Part shown: positions 826 through 23,684 of the stretch, piece by piece
Layout: each line of letters starts with the position of its first letter
Position numbering within the stretch: the first letter of the stretch is position 1
Source of the DNA: Chthoniobacterales bacterium
GTDB taxonomy: Bacteria > Verrucomicrobiota > Verrucomicrobiia > Chthoniobacterales > JACTMZ01
NCBI GenBank assembly: GCA_014879535.1
Contig: JACSRX010000010.1
Span: 1 to 38,214, forward strand
Length of the DNA stretch: 38,214 bases
Reading direction: 5' to 3'
Translations under genes and position numbers: made by a program
Notes under the pieces: model-generated
What the model was told of the DNA's origin: nothing
Seen by the model: the letters and a program-made list of their open reading frames with translations, nothing else
Databases searched by the model: none

Positions 826-1496
826 TGCTGGCCGTCCAATCCCTCTGGCTGGCCGACACCGGCAAGCCGCAAGACGCCGCCAAGTGGCAGGCTTCCAACG
901 CGGCCCTGCGCAAGCACTACCGCCGCACCGCCTTCTTCGGAAACCCCGCCGCTCTGGCTTGGGCGGAGGACATCGGCCTCGCCTACGACGAGACGCACCC
1001 GCTGCCCGAATACCACGAGGACATGGCGCGGGCCTGGAGCATCGGCAAGCTCCACGCGGCTTCGTGCATGACCCGCCCTTTCATCCATGTGGACGGAGAT
1101 GTGATCCTCCACCGCCCGCTCGCCGTGAAGGGCGTCCCGTTCTTCGTCCAAGGCCGCGAGCCGTGGATCTACGCCCCGGATTGGTGGCGGCGCTTCGGCG
1201 TGGCCCCACTGCCCCTGCCCTCCCCGATCCCGTGGAGCTACAACTTCGGCGTGTTCGGTGGCGAAGCATGGCAGGACATCGCCCGCGCGTGCCATACGGC
1301 CCACGACTTCGCTTTGTCGAGCCGCTTTGCCATCGCCACGGCCTGCCCGCGAATCATGCCCGCCGTGATTATCGAGCAAATCTGGGTGCCCGCCCTTCTT
1401 GCCCGCGAGGGCATCAGCCCCTTGGAGTTGCTCCGCCCCAACCGCTGGCGCGAAGACTTCGCCTCCGCCGGCTTCGAGCACTGGCTGCCACGTTGA
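825..1496 (+). CDS. DUF6734-like glycosyltransferase-type protein (copy 1)
   Basis: This 223-residue protein has the hallmarks of the DUF6734-like group: an early W-S-I-G-K-L segment, then PFIHVDGDVILH with a DxD-like acidic pair, then an S-Y-N-F-G-V-F-G-G segment and an EQIWVPALL segment. The acidic HVDGD motif resembles the nucleotide-sugar/metal site of GT-A glycosyltransferases, so sugar transfer is a reasonable but unproven role. It starts at ATG 825, inside the stop of the previous gene. A clear paralogue lies at 3240-3980, on the other side of the fibre-like gene. Possible roles are decoration of the tail fibre, the virion or the host surface. Confidence 0.65.
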   Translation: MLAVQSLWLADTGKPQDAAKWQASNAALRKHYRRTAFFGNPAALAWAEDIGLAYDETHPLPEYHEDMARAWSIGKLHAASCMTRPFIHVDGDVILHRPLAVKGVPFFVQGREPWIYAPDWWRRFGVAPLPLPSPIPWSYNFGVFGGEAWQDIARACHTAHDFALSSRFAIATACPRIMPAVIIEQIWVPALLAREGISPLELLRPNRWREDFASAGFEHWLPR

Positions 1497-1512
1497 CACC
1501 CGCCTCACGGGC

Positions 1513-3243
1513 GTGACCGTCTTCGACCTCGACGAGTTGGTGCTCAAGAACCGCCGCCTCACCGCCCTCACCAACCTCCGCTACCGCAAGAGCGACCGCC
1601 TCCAATGGCCGCTGCGCTTCCTCCAAGACGAATCCTTCGTGGAACTACCCGTCGGGGCCTCCCTGTCCGTGGGCGTCAAACGCACGCGCAACTCGAACTC
1701 CTATCTCGCCCTGGCCACCTCTCCCGCCAAGACCGGCACCGGCAGCACGACCATCTACACCTTCGACCTCAACCTCAACACCGAGCCCGTCTCCTACGAG
1801 CTTTCCGACAAGGAAACCATCGACTGCGTGCTGGAGGTGGAGATCGTCACGCCCACGCAGCGCCTCACCTCGCAGTCGGTCCCGCTCGTCATCGAGCGTG
1901 ATGTGATTGCCAACGATCCGGCCCCGGTAGCCATCCCCGACCTCAAGGCCACCCAAGCCGAGGCCGAAGCCGGCACCGACAACGGTAAGTGGATGACGCC
2001 CTTCCTCACCGCCCAAGCCATCGCAGCCCTCGCCGGTGGCGGCTCCTTCATCCTCAAACAGGCCAGCTTCCAAGCGGAATCCGGCAAGAGGTATCTCGTC
2101 GGGGTTTCACCAGACGGCGGTGGCACATCTGGCGGCGATGCCTCAGGGGGCAGCAGCGATGGCAGTGGCGGCAGCGTGGGTTCCGCGGAAACCGAAGTCA
2201 TCATCACGCTTCCGGCCAACCCGCAGCCAGCCGACGCCATCGTCATCCTCGATGCCTTCGGCAACTGGAGCCAGACGCGCTTCGGCCAGAGCACAATCCC
2301 CGCCGTCCTCCAGCTCAACGGCCACAGGCTCGATGGAAGCGTAGGGCTTTACAACGGGCTATGGGGCTTGATGGCCTTGCCATGCTCCTGCATCCTCACC
2401 TTCGCGGGCAGATCAGTCGGCTGGCACATCACGCGCATCGAAACGGGACGGGAACTCGACCTCGGCTACGGCTCACGGCTCGACCTGTGCAAATCGTATC
2501 CTGACGGCGTGATACTGACGAACACGAGCTCGGGCTATCCGCGATTCATCGTCTGGGGATACAATGGTCAGCACGTTTCCATCGGCGTTGCCAACGACAA
2601 ACCCGTCATCGAGGCGAGCGGCAACGCTCCGCTGCGCATCGGCCAACAGCCGCAACTCCTGCGAGCCCGGGGCTTCGTGACACTGGATGGGTCGAAGATC
2701 GAAGTGCCGTTCTACGGCACTCAGGACTGCAAGCTGGCCACCTACGCGGGGGCGACGACCGGCGGCAACGGTCTTGAGGAAGGCGCCCTGCGCTACAACA
2801 CAGTCCACGGCCGCCCGGAAATTCTGGTGAAAAACGCCAGGCCGTTGACCCTCACGCTGACCGGAACCACGCACCACCTCTACGCCAATACATTCACGCT
2901 CAACGGCACCTACATTTGGAACGTGGCTGAGAACAGGTGGAACGGAAACCCACTCCCCACCCCCTATGCCACGAAGGATGCCCCCGTTTACCAGAACTGG
3001 TCAGGCGTGCTCCCGGCGCAGATCCGATACGTCAACTGGACCAAGTGGGCCATCTTCGTCAACAACGTCGAATACGCCTATCTCCTCTGGCCGGGCAACG
3101 CCGTGTATCCGCCGCTTGCCGAGCAATTCCCTTACAGCAATCTCACCTGGAAGCTCACGGCTACAAATGAGGAAACCGACTTCCTTCTCAGCTACGACAC
3201 GAGCTTGGCGCGGTGGATTCCCTTGGACGGCTCCGGCGTATGA
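1513..3243 (+). CDS. Tail fibre or baseplate-type structural protein
   Basis: About 576 residues. The N-terminal ~180 residues resemble a baseplate-attachment beta domain (repeated short beta strands, phrases such as FVELPVGASLSVGV). A Gly/Ser-rich linker sits near residues 200-225, and a long beta-rich, aromatic C-terminal half follows, typical of receptor-binding fibres. No catalytic motif is seen. The frame is open through the end of the previous gene. GTG 1513 is chosen as the first plausible start after the upstream stop at 1496, but no good ribosome-binding site supports it, and an overlapping start further upstream is possible. The stop overlaps the next ATG (ATGA at 3240). The fibre role is inferred from architecture and position. 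Confidence 0.6.
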   Translation: MTVFDLDELVLKNRRLTALTNLRYRKSDRLQWPLRFLQDESFVELPVGASLSVGVKRTRNSNSYLALATSPAKTGTGSTTIYTFDLNLNTEPVSYELSDKETIDCVLEVEIVTPTQRLTSQSVPLVIERDVIANDPAPVAIPDLKATQAEAEAGTDNGKWMTPFLTAQAIAALAGGGSFILKQASFQAESGKRYLVGVSPDGGGTSGGDASGGSSDGSGGSVGSAETEVIITLPANPQPADAIVILDAFGNWSQTRFGQSTIPAVLQLNGHRLDGSVGLYNGLWGLMALPCSCILTFAGRSVGWHITRIETGRELDLGYGSRLDLCKSYPDGVILTNTSSGYPRFIVWGYNGQHVSIGVANDKPVIEASGNAPLRIGQQPQLLRARGFVTLDGSKIEVPFYGTQDCKLATYAGATTGGNGLEEGALRYNTVHGRPEILVKNARPLTLTLTGTTHHLYANTFTLNGTYIWNVAENRWNGNPLPTPYATKDAPVYQNWSGVLPAQIRYVNWTKWAIFVNNVEYAYLLWPGNAVYPPLAEQFPYSNLTWKLTATNEETDFLLSYDTSLARWIPLDGSGV

Positions 3244-3980
3244 AGGCCATCCAAACATTGTGGGGCGCGGCAACGGGAGGGCACACGCAACCCCCGCTCA
3301 TGTGGCAGTTGTCGCTCCACTTCCTGCGGCGCACATTCGGGCGCGTCGAGCTTTACGCGGATGCGCAAGGGCGGGCGTTCGCCAAGGGCGCCGGGCTGGT
3401 CTACGACACCGTGCATGAGCTGCCGCCGCCCCGCACGGGTCTGGAGCGGGTGTGGTCGGTGGGCAAGTTGCTGGCTGCCGCACAGCAGTCCGAACCCTTC
3501 CTCCATGTCGATGGCGATGCCTTCGTCCGCAAAGCCCCCGAAGCCGCCGCCTTCATCGTTCAGAACGAGGAGCATTGGCATCACGGGGGCGACTTCTACC
3601 AGTGGTGGGACGCCGTGCCGTTCCGCCCCGTTCAGGGCGCACCAATCGTCTCCTACTGCTTCGGCATCTTCGGCGGCATGGCCGCCACGGAAATCGCCAC
3701 CGCCTGCCGTCAAGCGGTTGACTTCATGGAAGCTCACGCCGCCAAAATGATCGCCTTGCTCGACACCCATCCTTGCGCCCCGCTCTTGGCCACCTGCCTG
3801 GTCGAGCAGATCTGGGTGCCCATGCTGCTCAAGGAAGCCGGCATCACGCCCACACCCTACCTCCGCAGTGGCCGCCTCTGGGATGACGCGGTTTCCAAGA
3901 AGTTCTTCCACGCCATGGACGGAAAACGATCCGCCCTCGTCCAAGATCAAGTCCAAGCCCTCGCCCAACACACCTTATGA
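3240..3980 (+). CDS. DUF6734-like glycosyltransferase-type protein (copy 2)
   Basis: 246 residues, paralogous to the protein at 825-1496. Shared landmarks in order are W-S-V-G-K-L-L-A-A, PFLHVDGDAFVRK, an E-H-W-H segment, S-Y-C-F-G-I-F-G-G, a run of conserved A-C-x-x-A-x-D-F, and EQIWVPMLLKEAGI. Unlike copy 1 it keeps the family N-terminus (MKAIQTLWG...). The HVDGD motif suggests a GT-A-like nucleotide-sugar site. It starts at ATG 3240, overlapping the fibre gene stop by 4 bases, and its stop overlaps the next gene by 4 bases. The two copies are clearly diverged, so the duplication is old or the copies were acquired separately. Confidence 0.65.
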   Translation: MKAIQTLWGAATGGHTQPPLMWQLSLHFLRRTFGRVELYADAQGRAFAKGAGLVYDTVHELPPPRTGLERVWSVGKLLAAAQQSEPFLHVDGDAFVRKAPEAAAFIVQNEEHWHHGGDFYQWWDAVPFRPVQGAPIVSYCFGIFGGMAATEIATACRQAVDFMEAHAAKMIALLDTHPCAPLLATCLVEQIWVPMLLKEAGITPTPYLRSGRLWDDAVSKKFFHAMDGKRSALVQDQVQALAQHTL

Positions 3981-4306
3981 ACATGACCCTCCTCACCGAA
4001 ACCGAAAGCGATGCCGCCCGCTTCGCCAACACCATCAACGCCACCGTGGACTGCGCTGAGCACCTCGCACGTTGCCTCAACACCGCAATGGCCGTGTTCG
4101 ATCTCCCAGACGAACGACTCGAAGCCCTGCTCAACCGCGTGGGGGCGCAGAACGTGCAAGGCTTGCTCGCGCTGGTCTCCGGCCTCGGGACCGCGCTCAA
4201 CGCAGGACTGCCGCTCATGGGCCGCAGCACCAAGGCGGCCACCGAGCCCAAGCGCCAGTTCACCGTGGACGACACGGGCCACATCACCGTCACCCCGGCC
4301 TCATGA
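3977..4306 (+). CDS. Small phage protein of unknown function
   Basis: 109 residues, mostly helical by composition (Ala/Leu/Glu-rich over residues 5-80), with a short polar C-terminal tail (QFTVDDTGHITVTPAS). No transmembrane segment, signal peptide or recognised domain is seen. The start ATG 3977 overlaps the previous stop (ATGA), and an alternative ATG two codons later (3983) is equally possible. The stop overlaps the next start by 4 bases. Coupled overlaps on both sides make it a real gene of the tail/lysis module, but no role can be assigned. Confidence 0.6.
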   Translation: MNMTLLTETESDAARFANTINATVDCAEHLARCLNTAMAVFDLPDERLEALLNRVGAQNVQGLLALVSGLGTALNAGLPLMGRSTKAATEPKRQFTVDDTGHITVTPAS

Positions 4307-4584
4307 GCGAGGAACCCGCCATCTCCGACCTTTCGCGCCGCTGCGACCTCTGCCGCGAGGACGTGCGCTCCAAGCTCACGGCTTTCGACCGGCGTCTGCT
4401 CGCCCTCGAAATCATTGTCCGCGGCGAGGACGGCCGCAACGGCATGAAGGCCCAACTCAATTCACTCTGCGTGAAGTTTGACGCCTTCGAGAAGAAGGCC
4501 ATCCGCTGGATCGCCATCGGCACTTCGCTTCCGGGCGTCGTGGTGGCTGTGGTCGGCGTGCTGAGGTTCTTGGGGCGGGTCTAA
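4303..4584 (+). CDS. Small coiled-coil protein with one C-terminal membrane segment
   Basis: 93 residues. The first ~65 are charged and helical, probably coiled coil, with a CDLC pair near residues 14-17. Residues ~68-88 form one hydrophobic segment followed by a basic end (FLGRV). This layout resembles XhlA-type phage lysis accessory proteins or other tail-anchored small phage proteins, but sequence identity to them is not established. The ATG at 4303 overlaps the previous stop. It is the last gene of the + strand operon before the gene-free region. Confidence 0.55.
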   Translation: MSEEPAISDLSRRCDLCREDVRSKLTAFDRRLLALEIIVRGEDGRNGMKAQLNSLCVKFDAFEKKAIRWIAIGTSLPGVVVAVVGVLRFLGRV

Positions 4585-4694
4585 GAACTGCCGTCAGCGA
4601 TTGAAAAATTCCAACATTTCCACTTGCGCTGATGTCTGCGGTGGCGTAGGAGCTTCATTGTCTTCAATGCAAACGAAAGCTTATCGCCATCAGA

Positions 4695-4850
4695 TGTTGG
4701 GCACCGATTCGATTCGGTGCCGTGCTCTCGTGCCCGCGTGGTTTTCACTCAAGACCAACGAAACACCGAGCACGGAGGCCAGGACCTCGTAGAACCTTTC
4801 ACCAAGGATCTTTCCACGAACCCGGCCTCGAAAAGGAGCCGGGTTTTTTA
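4695..4850 (+). ncRNA. Candidate structured RNA ending in a terminator
   Basis: Seen: a hairpin with an 8-bp stem (GGCACCGA 4700-4707 with TCGGTGCC 4714-4721, loop TTCGAT), then an 8-bp longer-range helix (CCGTGCTC 4720-4727 with GAGCACGG 4768-4775), then an intrinsic terminator at 4819-4849. The first and second helices share two bases, so they are alternative or stacked. No protein gene fits here. The 5' end and promoter are not defined. It could be the structured 3' end of the tail operon mRNA or a separate small RNA. A related hairpin with one compensatory pair change recurs at 5156-5177. Confidence 0.35.
4819..4849 (+). terminator. Intrinsic terminator after the tail-type operon
   Basis: Perfect 8-bp stem AACCCGGC (4819-4826) with GCCGGGTT (4838-4845), an 11-base loop, and a T-rich run continuing to 4849. 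It points rightward and would end transcription of the tail operon or of the candidate RNA before it. Confidence 0.75.
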
Positions 4851-4896
4851 TTTGCCGATGAACTGACCAAGAATTTCCTGAACAAGACATAGAACG

Positions 4897-4933
4897 AAAA
4901 AGGGCCGGGACCAGTTGACGCTGATCCCGACCC
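4897..4933 (-). terminator. Intrinsic terminator for leftward transcription
   Basis: Read on the minus strand, GGGTCGGGA pairs with TCCCGGCCC over 9 bp. One of these pairs is a G-U that becomes a C-A mismatch on the plus strand, which fixes the strand. An inner CAG/CTG extends the stem, and TTTTT follows. No minus-strand protein gene is credible to its right, so it may end an antisense or non-coding transcript that starts in the region before the tRNA array. Confidence 0.6.
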
Positions 4934-4934
4934 C

Positions 4935-5022
4935 GAGGCGGACCTTGCAGGGTCCTGTAGCCGCGGAAAAGTTACCGCAACAAGCTACCCTGTCAATGAC
5001 CGCCTCTCGCTCACCGAGAGGC
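4935..5022. ncRNA. Nested stem-loop region, possible structured RNA
   Basis: Three nested helices are seen: GAGGCGG 4935-4941 with CCGCCTC 5000-5006, CAGG 4948-4951 with CCTG 4989-4992, and GTAGC 4957-4961 with GCTAC 4984-4988, capped by GCGG/CCGC (4963-4966 with 4975-4978). A second hairpin, GCCTCTCG 5002-5009 with CGAGAGGC 5015-5022, competes with the outermost helix, so a switch is conceivable. Because the leftward terminator lies directly beyond 4935, the transcript may be on the minus strand. It matches no RNA family I know. Confidence 0.3.
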
Positions 5023-5234
5023 CCCAAGCGCGCCGGAAGCGCCCGAAGAACCGCCGTGAAATGCCTGCGGTTGCCGTCCTAACGGACTGCAAAGGTGTGT
5101 GTTCTTTATGCGTTGTCCGGGAGCAAGCCGTCTGAAAGCGGCGTCCTTCCGGCAGGGCACGGACTCGGTTCCGTGCCAGACGCGCTCAACCGGCGTGCCG
5201 TGGCTCCCTTGTTCCCGCGGCACGCCCCAGTTTC
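5023..5234. other. Gene-free leader of the tRNA array with strong hairpins
   Basis: No credible protein gene. Hairpins seen: AACCGC/GCGGTT around 5050-5071; GCCG/CGGC (5127-5130 with 5139-5142); an 8-bp stem GGCACGGA/TCCGTGCC (5156-5163 with 5170-5177); and a 12-bp stem GGCGTGCCGTGG 5192-5203 with CCGCGGCACGCC 5215-5226, whose single T-G pair indicates the plus strand. The 12-bp hairpin ends 9 bases before the first tRNA. It may shape processing of the array transcript. No promoter could be placed with confidence. Confidence 0.4.
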
Positions 5235-5304
5235 TGCAGGAAGGATTGGCATCCCGCCGAGTCTCATAAGCTTGGCTCCCGTGGTTCGATTCCACGTCCT
5301 GCAA
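5235..5304 (+). tRNA. tRNA with CAT anticodon (Met), canonical elbow
   Basis: Acceptor TGCAGGA/TCCTGCA, D-stem GGAT/ATCC with a 4-base loop TGGC, anticodon loop CTCATAA (anticodon 5265-5267), T-arm CGTGG-TTCGATT-CCACG, A73, no encoded CCA. It is the only array member with a normal TTC T-loop and GG in the D-loop. It lacks the three G-C anticodon-stem pairs of an initiator, so elongator Met or Ile(CAU) is likelier. The D-loop is unusually short. Confidence 0.85.
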
Positions 5305-5318
5305 CTTTTCCAAACGAT

Positions 5319-5391
5319 ACGGAGGGCACCAGCTGTGCAGCCGGGTCTCCAAAACCCAGCCTGCCCGGGGCAGCACCGGGACTCCGTGCCA
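5319..5391 (+). tRNA. tRNA-Trp (CCA anticodon)
   Basis: Acceptor ACGGAGG/ACTCCGT (last pair mismatched), D-stem GCAC/GTGC with loop CAGCT, anticodon loop CTCCAAA (anticodon 5349-5351), T-arm CCCGG-GGCAGCA-CCGGG, G73, CCA encoded. G73 is the bacterial Trp discriminator. The T-loop begins GGC, shared only with the Asp gene. The anticodon stem has four good pairs and a C-A at its base. Confidence 0.85.
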
Positions 5392-5399
5392 TTTCCGAT

Positions 5400-5472
5400 G
5401 GGGAACGTGGTGTATCAGTCAGCATTCAGGTTTGTGGAACCTGCGGAGCGGGTGCGAATCCCGTCGTTCCCC
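5400..5472 (+). tRNA. tRNA-His (GTG anticodon)
   Basis: Acceptor GGGAACG/CGTTCCC plus an extra G at 5400 opposite C73 at 5472, the G-1:C73 identity pair of His tRNAs. D-stem GTGT/GCAT with loop ATCAGTCA, anticodon arm CAGGT-TTGTGGA-ACCTG (anticodon 5434-5436), T-arm GCGGG-TGCGAAT-CCCGT. No encoded CCA. Confidence 0.9.
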
Positions 5473-5480
5473 CGTCTTTC

Positions 5481-5552
5481 GGGCCGCTAGATTAGTCAGT
5501 AAATCAGCCGGTTTGCACCCGGCAGTGCGGGGAGCGTAGCCCCGGCGGTCCA
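5481..5552 (+). tRNA. tRNA-Ala (TGC anticodon)
   Basis: Acceptor GGGCCGC/GCGGTCC carries the G3:T70 wobble that identifies Ala tRNAs, with A73. D-stem GATT/AATC and loop AGTCAGTA differ from the textbook AGTYGGTA only by A at position 18. Anticodon arm GCCGG-TTTGCAC-CCGGC (anticodon 5514-5516), T-arm CGGGG-AGCGTAG-CCCCG of the AGC class. No encoded CCA. Confidence 0.9.
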
Positions 5553-5560
5553 GTCTTTAA

Positions 5561-5638
5561 CCCTGCGTAGCCCAACCAAGCAGAGGCACGGCGTCGAGAG
5601 CGCCGCCAGTGCGGGTGCGAATCCTGCCGCAGGGACCA
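5561..5638 (+). tRNA. tRNA-Leu (GAG anticodon), short variable loop
   Basis: Acceptor CCCTGCG/CGCAGGG, A73, CCA encoded. D-stem GCC/GGC with loop CAACCAAGCAGA, anticodon arm CGGCG-TCGAGAG-CGCCG (anticodon 5596-5598) with C rather than T at position 33, variable loop only CCAGT, T-arm GCGGG-TGCGAAT-CCTGC. Bacterial Leu tRNAs normally have a long variable arm, which is missing here and in the other two Leu genes of the array. Confidence 0.85.
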
Positions 5639-5639
5639 T

Positions 5640-5713
5640 GAACCCGAAGCCACAGCAGACCGGCACCGGACTTTTAATCCGGCATGGTGAGGTTGCGACT
5701 ACCTCCGGGTTCA
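5640..5713 (+). tRNA. tRNA-Lys (TTT anticodon)
   Basis: Acceptor GAACCCG/CGGGTTC, A73, no encoded CCA. D-stem GCC/GGC with loop ACAGCAGACC, anticodon arm CCGGA-CTTTTAA-TCCGG (anticodon 5673-5675), T-arm GAGGT-TGCGACT-ACCTC. One base separates it from the CCA of the preceding Leu gene. Lys(UUU) is a frequent target of anticodon nucleases, which makes this member relevant to any protective role. Confidence 0.9.
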
Positions 5714-5722
5714 CGTTTTCCG

Positions 5723-5798
5723 GGACGCGAGTGACAACAGCATGTCTGCCTGCCTGTCGAGCAGGAGCGAGCGGGGGCAGCACCCGTCGCGTCCGCCA
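5723..5798 (+). tRNA. tRNA-Asp (GTC anticodon)
   Basis: Acceptor GGACGCG/CGCGTCC, G73 as expected for Asp, CCA encoded. D-stem GAC/GTC with loop AACAGCAT, anticodon arm CCTGC-CTGTCGA-GCAGG (anticodon 5756-5758), T-arm GCGGG-GGCAGCA-CCCGT, the same unusual T-loop as the Trp gene. Confidence 0.9.
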
Positions 5799-5805
5799 TT
5801 TCCCT

Positions 5806-5880
5806 CGGGCACGAGGAAGAAAGCAATCCGCCTCGCTTGGGACGAGGAGACACTCGGAGCGTTACCGAGGTGCCCGACCA
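5806..5880 (+). tRNA. tRNA-Pro (TGG anticodon)
   Basis: Acceptor CGGGCAC/GTGCCCG with C1-G72 and A73, both typical of bacterial Pro, CCA encoded. D-stem GGA/TCC with loop AGAAAGCAA, anticodon arm CCTCG-CTTGGGA-CGAGG (anticodon 5838-5840), T-arm CTCGG-AGCGTTA-CCGAG of the AGC class. Confidence 0.9.
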
Positions 5881-5888
5881 TTTCCACC

Positions 5889-5965
5889 GCGCCAGTGATG
5901 TTCAACAGCAAGCATGCCGCTCTTCCAAAGCGGTCGTCCGGGTGCAACTCCCGGTTGGTGCACCA
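5889..5965 (+). tRNA. tRNA-Gly (TCC anticodon) with an Ala-type G3:T70
   Basis: Acceptor GCGCCAG/TTGGTGC, A73, CCA encoded. Position 3-70 is a G-T wobble (5891 with 5959), the main AlaRS recognition element, and A73 also suits AlaRS; bacterial Gly tRNAs usually have U73. D-stem ATGT/GCAT, AG in the D-loop, anticodon arm CCGCT-CTTCCAA-AGCGG (anticodon 5924-5926), T-arm CCGGG-TGCAACT-CCCGG. Confidence 0.88.
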
Positions 5966-5966
5966 C

Positions 5967-6043
5967 GCCCCCGTGGCTCGAACAGATCAGGCAGCCGTCT
6001 TCTAAGCGGCGCGATGCGGGTGCAAATCCTGCCGGGGGTGCCA
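5967..6043 (+). tRNA. tRNA-Arg (TCT anticodon)
   Basis: Acceptor GCCCCCG/CGGGGGT with a G1-T72 wobble, G73, CCA encoded. D-stem GCT/GGC with an AACAGATCA-type loop, anticodon arm GCCGT-CTTCTAA-GCGGC (anticodon 6001-6003), T-arm GCGGG-TGCAAAT-CCTGC. One base after the Gly gene. It reads AGA/AGG codons, which are usually rare in high-GC hosts. Confidence 0.88.
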
Positions 6044-6051
6044 TTTCCAAA

Positions 6052-6128
6052 GCGCCGCATGCCGAAGCCGTCGAGGCGGCTGTTTGCAAAACAGCTCTTA
6101 CCCGGTGCGAGTCCGGGGCGGCGCTCCA
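6052..6128 (+). tRNA. tRNA-Cys (GCA anticodon)
   Basis: Acceptor GCGCCGC/GCGGCGC, T73 (the Cys identity base), CCA encoded. D-stem GCC/GGC with loop GAAGCCGTCGA, anticodon arm GCTGT-TTGCAAA-ACAGC (anticodon 6086-6088), T-arm CCCGG-TGCGAGT-CCGGG. The match of discriminator to anticodon argues that charging specificity is maintained. Confidence 0.9.
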
Positions 6129-6133
6129 TCTTA

Positions 6134-6205
6134 CTCCGCGTGATGTAACAGACAGCATGCGAGGCTTCGAACCTCGTCGTCAGGGTGCAATTCCTTGCGC
6201 GGAGA
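6134..6205 (+). tRNA. tRNA-Arg (TCG anticodon)
   Basis: Acceptor CTCCGCG/CGCGGAG, A73, no encoded CCA. D-stem ATGT/GCAT with AACAGACA-type loop, anticodon arm CGAGG-CTTCGAA-CCTCG (anticodon 6167-6169), T-arm CAGGG-TGCAATT-CCTTG. Confidence 0.88.
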
Positions 6206-6213
6206 TCTTTGAT

Positions 6214-6305
6214 GGAAGGTGAACCGGACTAGCGTGCCGGGACTCAGTGCTAATGAGATCGAGCTCCTCAGGGGGCTTGGGGAGCATGCCCTCCACCATC
6301 CGCCA
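6214..6305 (+). tRNA. tRNA-Ser (GCT anticodon), long variable arm
   Basis: Acceptor GGAAGGT/ACCATCC with one A-A mismatch, G73 as usual for Ser, CCA encoded. D-stem CCGG/CCGG with loop ACTAGCGTG, anticodon loop GTGCTAA (anticodon 6249-6251) on a four-pair stem, a long variable arm, then a T-arm whose loop AGCATGC belongs to the AGC class. The class II shape shows that long arms are kept for Ser although lost for Leu. Confidence 0.85.
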
Positions 6306-6306
6306 T

Positions 6307-6380
6307 CCCCGCATAGCTCAATAGCAGAGCATCCGGTCGATAACCGGCAGACCGAGGAGCGTTACCTCGTGCGGGGACCA
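6307..6380 (+). tRNA. tRNA-Ile (GAT anticodon)
   Basis: Acceptor CCCCGCA/TGCGGGG, A73, CCA encoded. D-stem GCTC/GAGC with loop AATAGCA, anticodon loop TCGATAA (anticodon 6339-6341) on a CCGG stem, with C at position 33. T-arm CGAGG-AGCGTTA-CCTCG. One base after the Ser gene. An alternative 5-bp stem would leave a 5-base loop, so the anticodon arm is unusual either way. Confidence 0.82.
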
Positions 6381-6393
6381 ATCTTCCGACCTC

Positions 6394-6468
6394 GCCGCGC
6401 AAGCATAGACAGCGATGCAGTCGCTTCGTAAGCGACAGAGCAGGGCGCAAGTCCCTGGCGCGGCTCCA
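6394..6468 (+). tRNA. tRNA-Thr (CGT anticodon)
   Basis: Acceptor GCCGCGC/GCGCGGC, T73, CCA encoded. D-stem GCAT/ATGC with loop AGACAGCG, anticodon arm GTCGC-TTCGTAA-GCGAC (anticodon 6427-6429), T-arm CAGGG-CGCAAGT-CCCTG. The CGC T-loop and T73 are shared with the Thr(GGT) gene, so the two are sister genes. Confidence 0.88.
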
Positions 6469-6475
6469 GTCTTTA

Positions 6476-6548
6476 CCCTGCCTAGCCCAATAGCAGAGGC
6501 ATCGGTCTTAGGAACCGACCAGTGCGGGTGCAACTCCTGCCGCAGGGA
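6476..6548 (+). tRNA. tRNA-Leu (TAG anticodon), short variable loop
   Basis: Acceptor CCCTGCC/CGCAGGG with the innermost pair C-C, A73, no encoded CCA. D-stem GCC/GGC with loop CAATAGCAGA, anticodon arm TCGGT-CTTAGGA-ACCGA (anticodon 6509-6511), variable loop CCAGT, T-arm GCGGG-TGCAACT-CCTGC. Closely related to the Leu(GAG) and Leu(TAA) genes. Confidence 0.87.
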
Positions 6549-6554
6549 CTTTAT

Positions 6555-6647
6555 GCGTGCGAGGCGACTGACAGCTGTGTCGCTCCGGTCTGTAAAACCG
6601 GACCCATGTGGTGAACACCGGAGGTGCAACTCCTCCCGCACGCACCA
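6555..6647 (+). tRNA. tRNA-Tyr (GTA anticodon), long variable arm
   Basis: Acceptor GCGTGCG/CGCACGC, A73, CCA encoded. D-stem GCGA/TCGC with ACAG in the loop, anticodon arm CCGGT-CTGTAAA-ACCGG (anticodon 6592-6594), a long variable arm containing GTG/CAC, T-arm GGAGG-TGCAACT-CCTCC. Class II shape as in normal bacterial Tyr. Confidence 0.9.
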
Positions 6648-6652
6648 CTTTT

Positions 6653-6727
6653 CGCTGGATGGCATAGAGAGATGTGCGCGGGCCTGAAGAGCCCCAGAGG
6701 TTGGTGCGATCCCAACTCCAGCGGCCA
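6653..6727 (+). tRNA. tRNA-Phe (GAA anticodon)
   Basis: Acceptor CGCTGGA/TCCAGCG, G73 instead of the usual bacterial A73, and C1-G72 instead of G1-C72. CCA encoded. D-stem GCAT/ATGT with loop AGAGAG, anticodon loop CTGAAGA (anticodon 6686-6688) on a GGGC/GCCC stem, T-arm GTTGG-TGCGATC-CCAAC. The acceptor end is unlike typical Phe, so charging is less certain than for its neighbours. Confidence 0.82.
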
Positions 6728-6737
6728 TTTGTCATGT

Positions 6738-6812
6738 CCCCGTGTAGCCCAAGGCAGAGGCAGCGGTCTTAAAAACCGCCCAGTGCGGGTGCGAATCCCG
6801 CCGCGGGGACCA
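6738..6812 (+). tRNA. tRNA-Leu (TAA anticodon), short variable loop
   Basis: Acceptor CCCCGTG/CGCGGGG, A73, CCA encoded. D-stem GCC/GGC with loop CAAGGCAGA, anticodon arm GCGGT-CTTAAAA-ACCGC (anticodon 6770-6772), variable loop CCAGT, T-arm GCGGG-TGCGAAT-CCCGC. Its D-loop could be read as GG or AG depending on alignment, the only ambiguous case among the G55 genes. Confidence 0.88.
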
Positions 6813-6820
6813 CATTCAAT

Positions 6821-6894
6821 CCGGCGGTGATGTAACAGGAGCATGGCTGGCCTACACCCAGCTCGCGGGGGTGCAAATCCCTCCCGCCGGACCA
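6821..6894 (+). tRNA. tRNA-Val (TAC anticodon)
   Basis: Acceptor CCGGCGG/CCGCCGG, A73, CCA encoded. D-stem ATGT/GCAT type with loop containing ACAGGA, anticodon arm GCTGG-CCTACAC-CCAGC (anticodon 6853-6855) with C at position 33, T-arm GGGGG-TGCAAAT-CCCTC. The anticodon stem is almost the same as in the Ile(TAT) gene at 7464. Confidence 0.83.
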
Positions 6895-6897
6895 TTC

Positions 6898-6968
6898 GCG
6901 GCATTCGTCTAAGAGCAGGACGCCACGTTGCCGACGTGGAGGAACCGGAGCGTCACCGGTATGCCGCA
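6898..6968 (+). tRNA. tRNA-Gly (GCC anticodon)
   Basis: Acceptor GCGGCAT/ATGCCGC with normal G3-C70, A73, no encoded CCA. D-stem GTC/GAC with loop TAAGAGCAG, anticodon arm CCACG-TTGCCGA-CGTGG (anticodon 6930-6932), T-arm ACCGG-AGCGTCA-CCGGT of the AGC class. It belongs to a different T-loop class from the Gly(TCC) gene. Confidence 0.87.
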
Positions 6969-6973
6969 TTTCT

Positions 6974-7048
6974 GTCGCCGAAGCATAGAAAGCGATGCAC
7001 GCCCCTGGTATGGGCGAGAGCAGGGCGCAAATCCCTGCGGCGGCTCCA
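6974..7048 (+). tRNA. tRNA-Thr (GGT anticodon)
   Basis: Acceptor GTCGCCG/CGGCGGC with T2-G71, T73, CCA encoded. D-stem GCAT/ATGC with loop AGAAAGCG, anticodon arm CGCCC-CTGGTAT-GGGCG (anticodon 7007-7009), T-arm CAGGG-CGCAAAT-CCCTG. Shares the CGC T-loop and T73 with Thr(CGT). Confidence 0.88.
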
Positions 7049-7054
7049 CTTTTC

Positions 7055-7127
7055 GTCCCCGTAGTTCAGCAGACAGAACGCAAGGTTGCGGACCTTGAGG
7101 TCGCAGGTGCGATTCCTGCCGGGGACA
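7055..7127 (+). tRNA. tRNA-Arg (GCG anticodon)
   Basis: Acceptor GTCCCCG/CGGGGAC, A73, no encoded CCA. D-stem GTTC/GAAC with loop AGCAGACA, anticodon arm CAAGG-TTGCGGA-CCTTG (anticodon 7088-7090), T-arm GCAGG-TGCGATT-CCTGC. G34 is unusual for the Arg CGN box, where bacteria normally use A34/inosine. Confidence 0.88.
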
Positions 7128-7131
7128 CTTC

Positions 7132-7205
7132 AGCCGTGTCGTCTAACAGTAGGACTCCGGACTTTGAATCCGGCAATGATGGTGCGAGTCCATCTGCGGC
7201 TGCCA
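7132..7205 (+). tRNA. tRNA-Gln (TTG anticodon)
   Basis: Acceptor AGCCGTG/TGCGGCT, G73 as expected for Gln, CCA encoded. D-stem GTC/GAC with loop TAACAGTAG, anticodon arm CCGGA-CTTTGAA-TCCGG (anticodon 7164-7166), T-arm GATGG-TGCGAGT-CCATC. The T-arm is identical to that of the Asn gene. Confidence 0.9.
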
Positions 7206-7211
7206 CTCTCG

Positions 7212-7301
7212 GGAAGATGAACCGGACAAGCGCGCCGGGCGCGCCTCGAAAGCGCAGCGGGCTGGCAACGGCCTGGGGAGCATGCCCTCCGTCTTCCGCC
7301 A
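7212..7301 (+). tRNA. tRNA-Ser (CGA anticodon), long variable arm
   Basis: Acceptor GGAAGAT/GTCTTCC, G73, CCA encoded. D-stem CCGG/CCGG with loop ACAAGCGCG, anticodon arm GCGC-CTCGAAA-GCGC (anticodon 7247-7249), long variable arm with GGC/GCC, T-loop AGCATGC. Sister of the Ser(GCT) gene. CGA reads only TCG codons, so TCT/TCC/TCA have no matching gene in the array. Confidence 0.87.
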
Positions 7302-7302
7302 C

Positions 7303-7377
7303 ACCAGCGTGGGATAACAGTAGTCCACCCGCCTGTTAAGCGGGACGGTGATGGTGCGAGTCCATCCGCTGGTGCCA
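7303..7377 (+). tRNA. tRNA-Asn (GTT anticodon)
   Basis: Acceptor ACCAGCG/CGCTGGT, G73 as expected for Asn, CCA encoded. D-stem GGA/TCC with loop TAACAGTAG, anticodon arm CCCGC-CTGTTAA-GCGGG (anticodon 7335-7337), T-arm GATGG-TGCGAGT-CCATC. Its D- and T-loops equal those of Gln, suggesting duplication and anticodon divergence within the array. One base after Ser(CGA). Confidence 0.9.
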
Positions 7378-7383
7378 CTTTCC

Positions 7384-7456
7384 GCCGCGAAAGCATGACG
7401 AAGTGATGCGCCCGCCTTGTAAGCGGGAGAACCGGGTGCAACTCCCTGTCGCGGCC
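7384..7456 (+). tRNA. tRNA-Thr (TGT anticodon)
   Basis: Acceptor GCCGCGA/TCGCGGC, C at position 73, no proper CCA (CCCC follows). D-stem GCAT/ATGC with loop GACGAAGTG, anticodon arm CCCGC-CTTGTAA-GCGGG (anticodon 7418-7420), T-arm CCGGG-TGCAACT-CCCTG with one mismatch. Its T-loop is TGC rather than the CGC of the other two Thr genes. Confidence 0.83.
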
Positions 7457-7463
7457 CCCTATC

Positions 7464-7551
7464 CCTCCCGTGGTGTAAAGTAGCACGGCTGGCTTATACC
7501 CAGTGAGCCCTGGATGAGGGCGCGGACCAGGTGCGAGTCCTGGCGGGAGGA
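7464..7551 (+). tRNA. tRNA with TAT anticodon (Ile, AUA) and a long variable arm
   Basis: Acceptor CCTCCCG/CGGGAGG, A73, no encoded CCA. D-stem GTG/CAC with loop TAAAGTAG, anticodon arm GCTGG-CTTATAC-CCAGT (anticodon 7495-7497), T-arm CCAGG-TGCGAGT-CCTGG. Between anticodon and T-arm sits a 5-bp hairpin GCCCT/AGGGC (7507-7521), a class II variable arm not expected for Ile. LeuRS, SerRS or TyrRS might see this arm, so the amino acid is uncertain. Confidence 0.8.
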
Positions 7552-7559
7552 CACCTTCG

Positions 7560-7633
7560 CGCTCCGTATTTCAGCCAAGCAGAACGCCGGTTTCATACGC
7601 CGGATGCCGCAGGTGCGAATCCTGCCGGAGCGA
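7560..7633 (+). tRNA. Second tRNA with CAT anticodon (Met or Ile-CAU)
   Basis: Acceptor CGCTCCG/CGGAGCG, A73, followed by CCC rather than CCA. D-stem TTC/GAA with loop AGCCAAGCA, anticodon arm CCGGT-TTCATAC-GCCGG (anticodon 7594-7596), T-arm GCAGG-TGCGAAT-CCTGC. Unlike the first CAT gene it has the altered elbow. It has no initiator-type anticodon stem. Confidence 0.85.
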
Positions 7634-7642
7634 CCCATTTCG

Positions 7643-7718
7643 ACCCGCGAATGCAAAGAGTCGAGCACCTCGCCTTTCAAGCGAGTCCTAACCGGTGCGA
7701 GTCCGGCCGCGGGGGCCA
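7643..7718 (+). tRNA. tRNA-Glu (TTC anticodon)
   Basis: Acceptor ACCCGCG/CGCGGGG with the first pair A-G mismatched, G73 as expected for Glu, CCA encoded. D-stem TGC/GCA with loop AAAGAGTCGA, anticodon arm CTCGC-CTTTCAA-GCGAG (anticodon 7676-7678), T-arm with four pairs and loop TGCGAGT. Last gene of the array, 49 bases before the HNH start. Confidence 0.87.
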
Positions 7719-7767
7719 ATCCAACGAGCGCGAACCAACGCATGAAGAGCACACGACAGTTTCCAAC

Positions 7768-8352
7768 ATGAAAGACAAACTCACATCACCAAGCGTGCTG
7801 GCGCTCAACGCGAACTGGCAGGCCATCGACGTTTACACGCCGCAGAAGGCATTTTGCATGATGGCCTCCGGCGCGGCGGCCGGCATCGATACCTCGGGCG
7901 GATCCATGGTGCCGGTGCGATGGGACCAATGGATCGTGCTACCGGGCGAGCCCGGCGCGGAAGCGGCCATGACCGCCAAGGGTCCAATCCGCATCCCTCG
8001 CGTGATCATCGCGGTCAACTACAAGCGTCTTCGCATCAAGACCGAAACGCTGACCCACGAGGTGATCGCCCGGCGGCAAGACTTCCGTTGCGCCTACACC
8101 GGCCGTCCCGTGCGGCGGCGAAACTGGTCCCTCGACCACGTCATTCCGAAGAGCCGCGGAGGCTCCTCGTCGTGGGACAACCTCGTGATCGCCGACCGCG
8201 ACGTGAACAGCCGCAAGGGCGACCGCACGCCGGCCGAGGCTGGGCTGCAACTTTTGCACAAACCACGGCCCCCGCGCCGTCTGGTGCCGAGCGACGACAT
8301 CCGGCAACGGTTCGGGGTTCTCTTCCGGGAATGGGAGCCGTTCGTCAAATAG
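7768..8352 (+). CDS. HNH endonuclease-type protein
   Basis: 194 residues. The N-terminal half (VLALNANWQAIDVYTPQKA) matches the usual lead-in of stand-alone HNH proteins. The HNH core lies at residues ~108-160: C108-AYTG, S-L-D-H124-V, the S-R-G-G turn, W-D-N138 and V-N147-S-R-K-G-D-R-T-P. The catalytic His and Asn are present, but three of the four zinc-ligand Cys of common HNH proteins are replaced (T, D, V), so the fold must hold without that zinc knuckle. ATG 7768 is the start consistent with the family N-terminus and with the end of the last tRNA. Its position between a tRNA array and RtcB suggests homing near tRNA genes, genome packaging, or RNA/tRNA cleavage. None of these is proven. 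Confidence 0.85.
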   Translation: MKDKLTSPSVLALNANWQAIDVYTPQKAFCMMASGAAAGIDTSGGSMVPVRWDQWIVLPGEPGAEAAMTAKGPIRIPRVIIAVNYKRLRIKTETLTHEVIARRQDFRCAYTGRPVRRRNWSLDHVIPKSRGGSSSWDNLVIADRDVNSRKGDRTPAEAGLQLLHKPRPPRRLVPSDDIRQRFGVLFREWEPFVK

Positions 8353-8399
8353 CTGGGCCGAAGCTGGCCACCACCAACTGTGAATCACAAACTGACACC

Positions 8400-9785
8400 A
8401 TGAAATCCAAAGACCTTCTGCAACTTGGCGTTCCCTTGGGCGGCCCGATGGGCGAGGCCTTCAAGTTCATCTCCGCTTTCTGCACGCAAGGCGGCTCCAA
8501 GGACCAACTCGAAGCTGAGATTGCCGCAGTCGTCGCCAACCCGGCGGCGTTCACGGATGACCCGCTGCGAGGTCCCCTCGCCTCATCACTGCAACAGCCG
8601 GGCCTTTACAAGCCAGGACGCCAGCCCGCGCCTTGGAAGCAATGGGGCACGGACATCGACGAAACCGCGCTCAAGCAAATCGAAATGGCCAGCCTGTTGC
8701 CCGTGTCCGTGGCGGCGGCTCTCATGCCCGACGCCCATGTCGGCTACGGGCTGCCCATTGGAGGCGTGCTGGCCACGGAGAATGCAGTCATTCCGTATGC
8801 CGTGGGCGTGGACATCGCCTGTCGCATGAAGATGACGGTGCTCGACCTGCCACTGTCGTGGCTCAAGGACCGCCATCACCGCCTCAAGGACGCCATCGAA
8901 ACCGAGACGAAGTTCGGCGTGGGGGCATCGTTCAAGCAACGCCGCCACCACGACGTGATGGACGATGACTGGTCGGCCAGCCCGATCACCGCCCGAAACA
9001 AGGACAAAGCCTGGTCCCAACTCGGCACGAGCGGCAGCGGCAACCACTTCGTTGAGTTCGGCGTGCTCACAGTTTCCGACCCGGCCGCGGGCCTGGCCGT
9101 CGGCAAATACCTCGCATTGCTCTCGCACAGTGGCAGCCGCGGCACGGGTGCCGGCGTGTGCGAGCACTACAGCAAACTTGCCATGAAGCTCCATCCCGAG
9201 CTGCCGAAGGAACTCGCGCGGCTCGCTTGGCTGACACTCGATTCGGAGGAAGGCCGCGAATACTGGGATGCCATGAACCTCATGGGCCGCTATGCAGCAG
9301 CTAACCACGCGCTCATCCATCACCACATCGCTGCCAACCTCGGCGTCGAGGTGATGCTCGACATCGAGAATCACCACAACTTCGCGTGGAAGGAGACCCA
9401 CTTTGGCAAGGAGGTCATCGTTCACCGCAAGGGCGCCACACCCGCGGCGGACGGTACCATCGGCATCATCCCCGGATCGATGGCGTCTCCCGGCTTCATC
9501 GTCCGCGGCAAAGGCCATCCCGACTCACTGGATTCTGCCGCCCACGGTGCCGGCCGATGCATGAGCCGAACCCGCGCAAACGAAACACTTTCGTGGCAGG
9601 ATGCCAACGCACTGCTGCGCGAACGTGGCGTCACTCTCATCTCGGCCGGCCTCGACGAAGTTCCCGCCTGCTACAAAGACATCACAAGCGTCATGGCTGC
9701 CCAAGCCGACCTCGTGGACATCCTCGCCCGCTTCGATCCAAAGCTCGTCAAGATGTGTCCCAGCGGCGAGAGACCCGAAGATTGA
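8400..9785 (+). CDS. rtcB: RtcB RNA ligase
   Basis: 461 residues, the normal length. RtcB joins a 2',3'-cyclic phosphate (or 3'-phosphate) end to a 5'-OH end using GTP and Mn2+, repairing or splicing tRNA. Hallmarks in order: PDAHVGYGLPIGG near residue 111; GVDIAC with Asp138/Cys141; GSGNHF with His216; LLSHSGSRG with His243; D-I-E-N-H-H-N near 325; VHRKGATPA at 341; PGSM at 358; and AHGAGRCMSR with His382, the guanylylated His. All metal and nucleotide ligands appear intact. It lies 47 bases after the HNH gene on the same strand as the array. This strongly suggests repair of cleaved tRNAs, host or element-encoded, after attack by tRNA nucleases. No archease or RtcA neighbour is seen. Confidence 0.95.
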   Translation: MKSKDLLQLGVPLGGPMGEAFKFISAFCTQGGSKDQLEAEIAAVVANPAAFTDDPLRGPLASSLQQPGLYKPGRQPAPWKQWGTDIDETALKQIEMASLLPVSVAAALMPDAHVGYGLPIGGVLATENAVIPYAVGVDIACRMKMTVLDLPLSWLKDRHHRLKDAIETETKFGVGASFKQRRHHDVMDDDWSASPITARNKDKAWSQLGTSGSGNHFVEFGVLTVSDPAAGLAVGKYLALLSHSGSRGTGAGVCEHYSKLAMKLHPELPKELARLAWLTLDSEEGREYWDAMNLMGRYAAANHALIHHHIAANLGVEVMLDIENHHNFAWKETHFGKEVIVHRKGATPAADGTIGIIPGSMASPGFIVRGKGHPDSLDSAAHGAGRCMSRTRANETLSWQDANALLRERGVTLISAGLDEVPACYKDITSVMAAQADLVDILARFDPKLVKMCPSGERPED

Positions 9786-10337: not shown

Positions 10338-11615
10338 TCAACGCTTCGTGCCTTTGCGTGGGCGTGGACCTACCGGTCGGATCGCGAACCAAGCCTTGGC
10401 GGCATCAGCGGTGGCCAGCTCGCGATAGTTGGTGAAAAGCACCTTGGGACTGTTGCCCGCCTCTAGTGCAACTTGGGCGGCACTCTTGATGTCAGCCAAC
10501 CGGTAGGTGCAGAAGCTGTGGCGCAGGCCGTTGACGACCGGCGTGACACCCGCATCGGAAACGCTCGCCTGCATGAAGGCGCAGAAATGGGAGATATTAC
10601 CCTGCGAGAAAACGGTCCCGCTGCCCCGCTCGGTGAGGTCCAGAACCGCCTTGAGCGGCGGCAAGACCGGAACGAGGCGCCGCGCCGCAGTCTTCGCCTT
10701 GTGCGCCGCAATCGTGATGTATTGCTCGCCGATGTCCTCCCACTCCAACCGGTGAATCTCCGCGCTGCGCAGACCGGCGAATGCCCCTAAAGCCAAGGCC
10801 AACCGGGCAAGCCCGCTGGTTCCAACGATGACTTTGGTCATCTGCTCGGGGCTGTAGATGCCGGGAGCGGTTGCTGGGGCCTTGATGCGGTCCACATGCT
10901 CGGCTTCGGTGCTACGGTCGCGAGCCAAGTAGCCCCTACGCTTGGCATGAGCGAAGAGCGTCCTGATCGTCATGCGAACGTTCTCCTTGCTGCGGGGCCC
11001 AAGCTTGAGCTTGTCGAGATACTGCTGCAGGTCTTTGGTGCGGATAGTGGAAAGGTTGCAGCGGAAGACCTTCTTGAAGCGGTCCAGAATGAGGTCGCAC
11101 TCCGTGACGTAACGCGCCGAGAGTCCCGCCCGCCTCTTGGATTCGAGGAAGTCATCAACCAGATCGGCAATCGAAATCTCCGGCATCGTCTCCTCATCCT
11201 GCCGCTTGGCGTATTGCTCGGCCGCGGTGAGAAGACTACCTCCGCGCATGACGGTTCGCGCGCGTCCCCACTCCGCCGCAACAGACGCCAAAGTGACTCC
11301 GTCAAACTGACGCAGGATCTGCTGGGCCGCCATGAAATCCGCCAGCTCCTCCGGTGTCAGCGCCGCCAAGGTCCGACCCTCGCCCTCCGTCAGTTGTCTC
11401 GCCGCCGAGCGGGCAATCTCCCGGGCCTTCTCGATCGTGGGGGCACGACGCTGCAGGCGCCGCCCGCCGACGTAGTAGGAAACCAGATAGCTCTCGTAGC
11501 CGCCCACCGGCTTGCGGTAGATCGGGATCGCCATGTCCCGAAAGCCGACAACTTCCACGGGAGCCCGTTGCTTTCGGGCGGCAACCCGCCCCCTTGTTTT
11601 TGACCGCGTTTTCAT
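10338..11615 (-). CDS. Tyrosine-type site-specific integrase
   Basis: 425 residues. The N-terminal part includes an arm-type DNA-binding region and a SAM-like core-binding domain (about 145-230). The catalytic domain has Arg283 in AGLRSAEIHRLEW, a Lys in the beta-hairpin near 308, box II as N362-G-L-R365-H-S with Asn where most family members have His, N388 in E-A-G-N-S-P where His/Trp is usual, and the nucleophile Tyr397 in T-N-Y-R-E-L. The substitutions are common among distant members, so activity is plausible. It marks the right end of the element and is transcribed inward. Confidence 0.92.
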   Translation of the reverse strand: MKTRSKTRGRVAARKQRAPVEVVGFRDMAIPIYRKPVGGYESYLVSYYVGGRRLQRRAPTIEKAREIARSAARQLTEGEGRTLAALTPEELADFMAAQQILRQFDGVTLASVAAEWGRARTVMRGGSLLTAAEQYAKRQDEETMPEISIADLVDDFLESKRRAGLSARYVTECDLILDRFKKVFRCNLSTIRTKDLQQYLDKLKLGPRSKENVRMTIRTLFAHAKRRGYLARDRSTEAEHVDRIKAPATAPGIYSPEQMTKVIVGTSGLARLALALGAFAGLRSAEIHRLEWEDIGEQYITIAAHKAKTAARRLVPVLPPLKAVLDLTERGSGTVFSQGNISHFCAFMQASVSDAGVTPVVNGLRHSFCTYRLADIKSAAQVALEAGNSPKVLFTNYRELATADAAKAWFAIRPVGPRPRKGTKR

Positions 11616-21664: not shown

Positions 21665-21758
21665 TTTGACCGAAAACACGGGGGGCGCCCCCGCGTTCGG
21701 GCACCATTGCAGGGAAGCCGGCCCAGCACCCCGGCAACCAGACCGCACCCACCCTTGT

Positions 21759-23684
<1,926 letters not shown>

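Follow-up and report, generated by a model that had tools for sequence, protein, structure and literature searches.

A short reading frame in a contig of a Chthoniobacterales bacterium ends at position 4584, and the 650 bases that separate it from a tRNA array contain no plausible gene. The DNA analysed here (the window, 38,214 nt) is contig C90 of a genome of 3.17 Mb in 97 contigs, and its left part looks like a mobile element. The array (5235-7716, plus strand; the end is approximate and was set by eye from the sequence) contains 16 tRNAs detected by ARAGORN, to which Rfam adds three (6307-6377, 6821-6891 and 7384-7456). A tRNA-Trp-like sequence at 5318-5395 (anticodon CCA by eye) was missed by ARAGORN and has matches of 75-96% identity, some of them partial, in ten other genomes of the order. 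The array is followed on the same strand by genes for an HNH endonuclease (7768-8352; Pfam HNH_4, HNH_5 and HNH) and an RtcB RNA ligase (8400-9785, start set by eye; Pfam RtcB E 2e-84 and PHROG 1075, both obtained with the longer frame 7854-9785), and on the opposite strand by an integrase gene (10338-11615, minus). Chromosomal-type genes lie to the right of the integrase, for example an rpoD-like sigma factor at 21621-23684. Two frames of the element, 1399-3243 and 3213-3980, belong to no clear family except for DUF6734 in the second (Pfam E 1e-16), and a 614-aa frame from the left end of the window has no relative in IMG/VR.

Hairpins Upstream of the tRNA Array

A first-pass annotation had described the region before the array as free of genes and dense in hairpins, and proposed one or more undescribed RNAs there. 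All five features that it listed are present where it placed them: two hairpins of 8 bp with loops of 6 nt (4700-4721 and 5156-5177), a three-layer nested stem (4935-5006), a competing hairpin of 8 bp (5002-5022) and a hairpin of 12 bp with one mismatch just before the first tRNA (5192-5226). The hairpin density is real as well, far above dinucleotide shuffles and above the window right of 8400. Positions 4585-5234 contain four perfect stems of at least 8 bp with loops of 3-12 nt; 500 dinucleotide shuffles of the same sequence gave a mean of 0.11 such stems and a maximum of two, and among 45 other 650-nt stretches from 8400 onwards 36 had none, eight had one and one had two. Predicted folding of the 649-nt stretch is 6.4 sd below 20 shuffles, and that of 4895-5228 is 3.7 sd below 100 shuffles.

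The 4700 and 5156 hairpins had additionally been interpreted as a duplicated, covarying pair. Both exist, but they are not a conserved pair: three relatives from the subfamily of the window (L034, L072 and L079, the last two nearly identical) carry hairpins of other sequence at both places, so the likeness is not a conserved duplication and was rejected as a conserved feature. Two near-identical hairpins occurred in none of the 500 shuffles, a result that says little because shuffles seldom contained two hairpins at all. The list also omitted two elements, namely the most conserved part of the RNA (5023-5107) and the fourth perfect 8-bp stem. The latter, at 4819-4845, is followed by TTTTTTATTT, so that the whole element (AACCCGGC...GCCGGGTT TTTTATTT; 4819-4850, plus strand) resembles a terminator upstream of the RNA. 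It is retained in all three relatives, and a simple terminator scan with loops of 3-8 nt missed it because its loop measures 11 nt.

The RNA itself probably begins near 4898, where a purine-rich AAAAAGG precedes a hairpin at 4904-4934. The segment 4898-4934 (plus strand) is strongly conserved in four sequences, with one G-C to A-T exchange in the stem, and elsewhere in the RNA family the start consists of a conserved purine run followed by GGC(T/C)T. A promoter search before RGGC showed no -35 element and, at -13 to -7, no more than a weak bias toward T/A/C. The nested stem and the hairpin that overlaps it (4935-5022, plus strand) are specific to the subfamily and show little covariation, as their stems are mostly unchanged in the three relatives. 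Between the end of the conserved core and the array, three further hairpins (5118-5153, 5156-5177 and 5192-5226; plus strand) are retained with altered sequence in relatives; for the last two this was seen in the three nearest ones, and nine T follow the last hairpin in L034. Stable folds directly 3' of the end of the conserved core are found in 43 of 62 copies (z below -2; the first tRNA contributes in some).

A Conserved RNA Core in Verrucomicrobiota

A search of relatives, where the first-pass annotation had called for a covariance search, identified a conserved core at 5023-5107 (plus strand). The initial search compared 4586-5420 with 213 genomes of the order and found one close relative (G026, 76% identity over 4661-5227), together with a short stretch, about 5030-5080, that recurs in several families, suitably spaced ahead of a conserved tRNA-Trp. 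Alignment of these stretches gave a core of about 90 nt. Matches in five other stretches from this search (L046-L050) were judged by eye to be coding or chance. An exact pattern from the 5' half of the core, applied to 84,980 bacterial and archaeal species genomes, returned 47 loci, the titles of which all name Verrucomicrobiota or groups within it. With a covariance model, 14 of the 213 genomes yielded 17 places scoring at least 56.8 bits, against 25.6 for the next match, and a second model found ten genomes besides that of the window among 387 genomes of the phylum (one of them, G422, is the source of L173). The core of the window scores 82.6 bits with model R1 and 71.9 with R2, both of which were built with the window sequence among others. 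From IMG/VR, five of 55 matches were kept (L060, L072, L078, L079 and L087), and the other 50 were dropped for want of the rest of the core and of tRNAs within 4 kb; a later search reported 88 stretches, and those listed comprised the same five and 75 new ones (L247-L321), none of the new ones above 19.5 bits. With blastn, only the tRNA-Met part of the region matched phages (five records), and the core of L045 had four plasmid matches and one phage match (H6) that was judged chance on inspection.

The final alignment comprises 66 sequences, 63 of them distinct, in 29 clusters at 80% identity; the 63 distinct sequences come from Verrucomicrobiota genomes and three IMG/VR viral contigs. They share three stems, located in the window at 5028-5031/5039-5042 (P1), 5051-5054/5067-5070 (P2) and 5072-5079/5084-5091 (P3), followed by a conserved box. 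In the 63 distinct sequences, 12 of the 17 pairs have changes on both sides, 96.3% of cells in the final alignment pair, and the covariation score is 0.42 compared to 0.13 for shuffled and at most 0.10 for slid alignments; these figures are favoured by the fact that the underlying alignment was fitted to the structure model. Predicted folding energies do not set the core apart (z about 0 in four cores) and were dropped as evidence.

A further interaction involves the loop of P1, which starts with GCC and pairs with the GGC of the conserved RGGC(T/C)T located 8-46 nt upstream, forming a pseudoknot. The fourth position covaries: GCCT occurs with A in 32 sequences and with G in five, and GCCC occurs with G in 12 and with A in none (Fisher test of the two classes, 7e-8). 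This fourth pair fails in seven sequences (GCCA in five, GCCC with C in two), and in seven more, the window included, the pattern used recognised no partner. In the window, AGGC at 5019-5022, in the 3' arm of the competing hairpin, could serve as the partner.

At gathering score, Rfam (release 15) reports only tRNA in the window, and with relaxed thresholds the segment 4400-5400 and 12 other stretches likewise gave only tRNA above gathering score. None of the Rfam matches listed overlaps the core, and the remaining weak ones were taken for chance. Two weak YrlA (Y RNA-like) matches below gathering score, at 6349-6416 of L035 (E 7e-4) and 5087-5154 of L043 (E 1e-3), lie downstream in array loci that bear RtcB and are probably odd tRNAs. 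The idea of an undescribed RNA was thus borne out by a conserved and covarying RNA without an Rfam match, which in other Verrucomicrobiota genomes and in viral contigs likewise lies ahead of tRNA arrays, although its conserved core is not among the hairpins originally listed. That this conserved RNA is real is virtually certain, and it represents a conserved class ahead of phage tRNA arrays that has no match in Rfam release 15.

Association With tRNA Arrays and Mobile Elements

The RNA and the tRNAs follow a consistent order. Around 66 copies, ARAGORN places 412 tRNAs downstream on the same strand, five upstream and three on the other strand, and 54 of the 66 are followed by same-strand tRNAs within 6 kb, or within the shorter distance that a stretch covers. 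The two copies that have diverged furthest, at 36 and 29 bits, still precede 25 and 22 tRNAs. Nine of the ten copies from the search of 387 genomes are followed by 2-25 tRNAs and the tenth by one Rfam tRNA. Among the 47 genome loci, 38 have downstream tRNAs on the same strand; for L188 they are visible in a longer stretch (L042), L165 and L174 have a tRNA-Trp-like sequence by eye, and the stretch of L175 ends 69 nt after the core. Two LW23 loci (L170 and L178) have neither tRNAs nor a recombinase. In three loci (L153, L166 and L183) the core lies directly upstream of a serine recombinase gene and then RepB/ParB-like genes, without tRNAs; the first two were read as L143 (2126-5628) and L140 (2199-5705), and the third spans 2913-6442. 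Two carriers are tailed phages, as they possess portal and head protease genes (L079) or terminase and endolysin genes (L087). Additionally, a unit of about 610 nt at 1697-2400 of L142, bounded by the core and the inverted copy of its tail, lies between host-type genes; it contains tandem TTTCGGCTTTCACGCCGATAGCATTCTGG-type repeats, no tRNAs were found in it, and it is possibly a small mobile or stand-alone RNA unit.

A Probable Long-Range Helix Between Leader and Trailer

The 3' end of the RNA, GGUGUxxGUUCUUU, has its complement beyond the array, which would allow one very long hairpin with the tRNA genes in its loop. In the window, the leader strand of this helix (P4) is located at 5096-5115 and the trailer strand at 7736-7755, 12 nt upstream of the HNH start codon (both plus strand), and the array falls inside the loop. 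All 20 consecutive positions can pair (17 Watson-Crick and three G.U), and the minimum-energy duplex, which leaves the outermost G.U open, has -31 kcal/mol. The trailer is the best plus-strand partner of the leader strand, with a score of 45 compared to 31 for the next. An inverted copy of the 18-nt tail (at most three mismatches) lies downstream in 28 of 77 places, and a direct copy in none. In 34 of 64 loci (a few places occur twice) the site beats all 12 shuffled tails; the trailer complement is therefore present in about half of the loci tested. No site was found within 13-19 kb in the arrays L330 (C. flavus), L331 (G045) and L334 (G046) or in the recombinase locus L333, and no trailer was detected in the recombinase loci L143, L140 and L183. 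Spartobacteria bacterium LR76 (L167) carries the RNA together with tRNAs and a trailer, and Chthoniobacter flavus Ellin428 contains, beside its array copy lacking a detected trailer, a recombinase copy. Since these recombinase loci and some arrays without a detected trailer carry the leader domain, the distribution suggests that it can work alone as a cis element. As a separate observation, the box of L155 (minus strand, below 7116) is directly followed by a perfect 30-bp hairpin, and additional copies, both direct and inverted, occur about 1.3 kb on.

A placement of the trailer just after the last tRNA is no general rule, given that its distance from the last ARAGORN tRNA stays within 250 nt in only 14 of 32 duplex loci (among them the window). 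The site lies 0.7-5.2 kb past that tRNA in 16 others and precedes it in L233, and L142 has no tRNA. An Rfam scan of 12 of the 16 long gaps revealed one extra tRNA only (L234), and P4 therefore encloses other sequence there too. With respect to the genes that follow, 26 of 32 distinct loci bearing HNH or rtcB have the site about 33-87 nt upstream of where one of these genes is estimated to start, counting sites equalled or outscored by at most one of 200 shuffled tails. L155, missed at first because of a stray match, has its site 66 nt before rtcB and raises the number to 27. In L043 and L162 a strong site stands ahead of other reading frames, the site of L035 lies 4.7 kb on (in the longer stretch L332), and L150 and L161 have none. 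This placement, which holds even where the last tRNA is kilobases away, is what would be expected if P4 regulated the downstream message, the leader pairing with the HNH or rtcB 5' UTR and masking its start region until the tRNAs are excised or the leader binds otherwise. The identity of the gene behind the site argues against such a regulator, as it varies between HNH and RtcB from locus to locus. Where both genes are present, the site stands before only one of them, namely the first gene in the window and in L040, L041, L042, L148, L173, L179, L186, L235 and L237, and HNH despite an earlier RtcB without a site in L159, L172, L190, L231 and L234; moreover, the sites of L043 and L162 precede other frames, and the L142 stretch has no HNH or RtcB gene. 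Regulation of the downstream message is considered unlikely, at roughly one chance in four.

Tails and trailers vary together across loci, as illustrated by GGGTGATCATTCCCGAA in L236, GGGGTGTTCATCCATT in L038 and TTTGAGCGGCG in L142, and a compensatory change distinguishes ATGCGTTG/CAACGCAT in the window from ATGCGTTC/GAACGCAT in L079. At index 12 of P4 the pair is T-A in 18 duplexes, C-G in 12 and A-T in one. The lineage-specific letters pair with their own partner (0.96) more often than with crossed ones (0.80), also at index 20-27 (0.54 compared to 0.36). At index 6-19 of 31 distinct duplexes, 401 cells are Watson-Crick, 16 G.U, 3 A.C and 14 other, which gives an excess of G.U over A.C (p 0.002; 11 versus 3 at index 6-18, p 0.03) for sites that were chosen by a score favouring G.U over A.C; at index 8-27, with unpaired ends included, both amount to 25. 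As the alignment was fitted to the structure and the site score favours G.U, the covariation and G.U tests lean toward our reading. Complementarity and covariation in the 32 duplex loci together delineate a putative long-range helix around stable-RNA genes. The leader-trailer pairing is very probably real, and it is likely, with somewhat less assurance, to occur in RNA rather than in DNA.

The inverted copies on either side of the array could alternatively be the DNA ends of a movable tRNA cassette used by a recombinase, with covariation arising from folding of single-stranded DNA or from shared ends. The unit of L142, with host-type genes on both sides and no tRNAs, and the three RNAs ahead of a serine recombinase would be compatible with this. 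The inverted repeat covers the box region, in part of the loci. Yet among the loci listed P1-P3 are missing from the trailer end, except for a piece in L235, and 19 kb of one recombinase locus contain no second end. The complementarity also continues into letters specific to a lineage, and at index 6-19, where the site score favours G.U, this pair is more frequent than A.C. DNA ends are therefore an improbable explanation. Still less is to be said for a free small RNA that acts in trans and has the tRNA island as an incidental neighbour, in the habit of GOLLD and ROOL, which adjoin phage tRNA islands according to the part of the literature on them that was consulted (PMC12286853). The terminator-like hairpin with nine T after the RNA in L034 would suit such a molecule, but no Rfam match to GOLLD or ROOL was obtained, the order from RNA to array is fixed on one strand and the complementary site lies downstream on that same strand, all of which makes a trans-acting RNA quite improbable. 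Finally, the RNA might be a riboswitch or an attenuator, with ACACC, an arm of P1, alternating between P1 and the 3' GGUGU (P0). RNAalifold prefers P0, but such a switch was rejected as very improbable, since none of the five P0 pairs has both sides changed whereas P1 covaries, and P0 by eye is unable to form in L227 and L228.

A BoxA-Like Box in the Leader Strand

The leader strand of P4 includes the conserved box that ends the core (TGTTCTTT, 5100-5107, plus strand). The form YG(T/C/A)TCTTT is present in 38 of 63 distinct cores and a looser form in 51; the tails of 25 miss the strict boxA form. In gamma-proteobacteria boxA is given as GYTCTTTAANA in the portion of the source consulted (PMC5725501). 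The pattern [CT]G[CTA]TCTTT occurs in 12 of 21 rrn (16S) leaders of relatives, where 2.3 would be expected, and in none of the 21 in antisense. A second rrn set, three of its ten members shared with the first, contains five strict matches, and the rest are looser by eye, for example TTTTTTGATAG or AGATCTTT. Letters 3' of the box show no conservation. Host-matched variants were also considered, and by eye the phage box follows the rrn variant of its host in two of six lineages only. As the box resembles boxA, antitermination would be possible, but on these sequence comparisons we regard it as doubtful, with somewhat less than one chance in three. The box cannot be bound by NusB and paired in P4 simultaneously.

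A Possible Mechanism for tRNA Array Expression

The preferred reading is that the RNA forms the structured leader of a long tRNA-array transcript, from which a leader-trailer helix would loop out the array as in rRNA operons; judged from the sequences, this falls a little short of an even chance. An untranslated array would need protection from Rho, and its RNA would have to be set apart from the next message. The box might act first, while the RNA is still being transcribed, possibly in the manner of a boxA that enables RNA polymerase to read through the untranslated array. In rrn operons NusB keeps boxA near the polymerase, which is proposed to aid leader-trailer pairing, according to the excerpt available (PMC10250234). 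Upon emergence of the trailer, P4 (about 14-25 bp) would form between box and trailer, ending the box-dependent state and leaving the complete array in the loop, joined by other genes in some loci. The helix could then offer a double-stranded site of the RNase III type that parts the tRNA section from the next message, mostly HNH or rtcB; for this processing role the prospects are nearly, though not fully, balanced. The strands and their covariation are seen directly, and from them we infer tethering, antitermination and cutting. The early proposal of an undescribed RNA that perhaps controls or processes the array is in line with the trailer complement past the array in many loci; the action of the RNA would be putative.

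RtcB is encoded nearby in many loci, and the scheme may be carried further: Verrucomicrobiota phages would carry a dedicated RNA device in which the pseudoknotted leader loads an antitermination complex via boxA, the emerging trailer captures the box, thereby switching the complex off, closing the array loop and marking it for release, and nearby RtcB may reseal or circularise the released RNA. As a whole, this extended scheme is improbable. The more general proposal of a leader-trailer helix around the array is plausible as a mechanism and points to a novel, experimentally accessible means by which a phage could produce and trim its own tRNAs. A literature search of titles and abstract openings returned no paper describing this RNA or a pairing around phage tRNA arrays, and the literature consulted in this form likewise contains no description of how long untranslated phage tRNA arrays are expressed and trimmed. 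The RNA represents a mutable handle, as two strands of 14-20 nt, often kilobases apart, would form a pairing that can be broken and restored, and the class can serve as a marker in searches for Verrucomicrobiota phages and their tRNA islands.

Comparison With Known Systems

Structured nascent RNAs that help polymerase along an operon include the put RNA of HK022 and the EAR element. The put RNA, which acts directly on RNA polymerase according to the part of the source consulted (PMC9378689), resembles the leader in that a similar aid along a phage operon is suggested here; the leader differs by its boxA-like box and long-range pairing. Arrays of tRNAs on mobile elements, with an HNH gene as here, are described for Mycobacterium, where the section consulted mentions no such leader or trailer (PMC12803027), the comparison being one of descriptions. 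Another study reportedly covers tRNA array units of Mycobacterium as well.

The GOLLD (RF01998) and ROOL (RF03087) models gave no covariance-model match to the core, which measures about 90 nt and not hundreds. Both are, like the present RNA, phage or prophage RNAs found beside tRNA islands, and the GOLLD linker can contain tRNAs, as far as the excerpt consulted describes them (PMC12286853). Here, in contrast, the RNA precedes the array and a complementary strand lies past it in many loci. The closest likeness is to rrn operons, which in the portion of the account consulted (PMC10250234) share a structured leader and a long untranslated operon of stable RNA with the system described here, and whose boxA-type box and leader-trailer helix have putative counterparts in it. 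The comparison of rrn leaders covered the box, and a boxA function would be putative here. In the phage system the cargo is a tRNA array rather than rRNA genes, the leader has a pseudoknotted domain of its own, and the box itself would form a strand of the helix.
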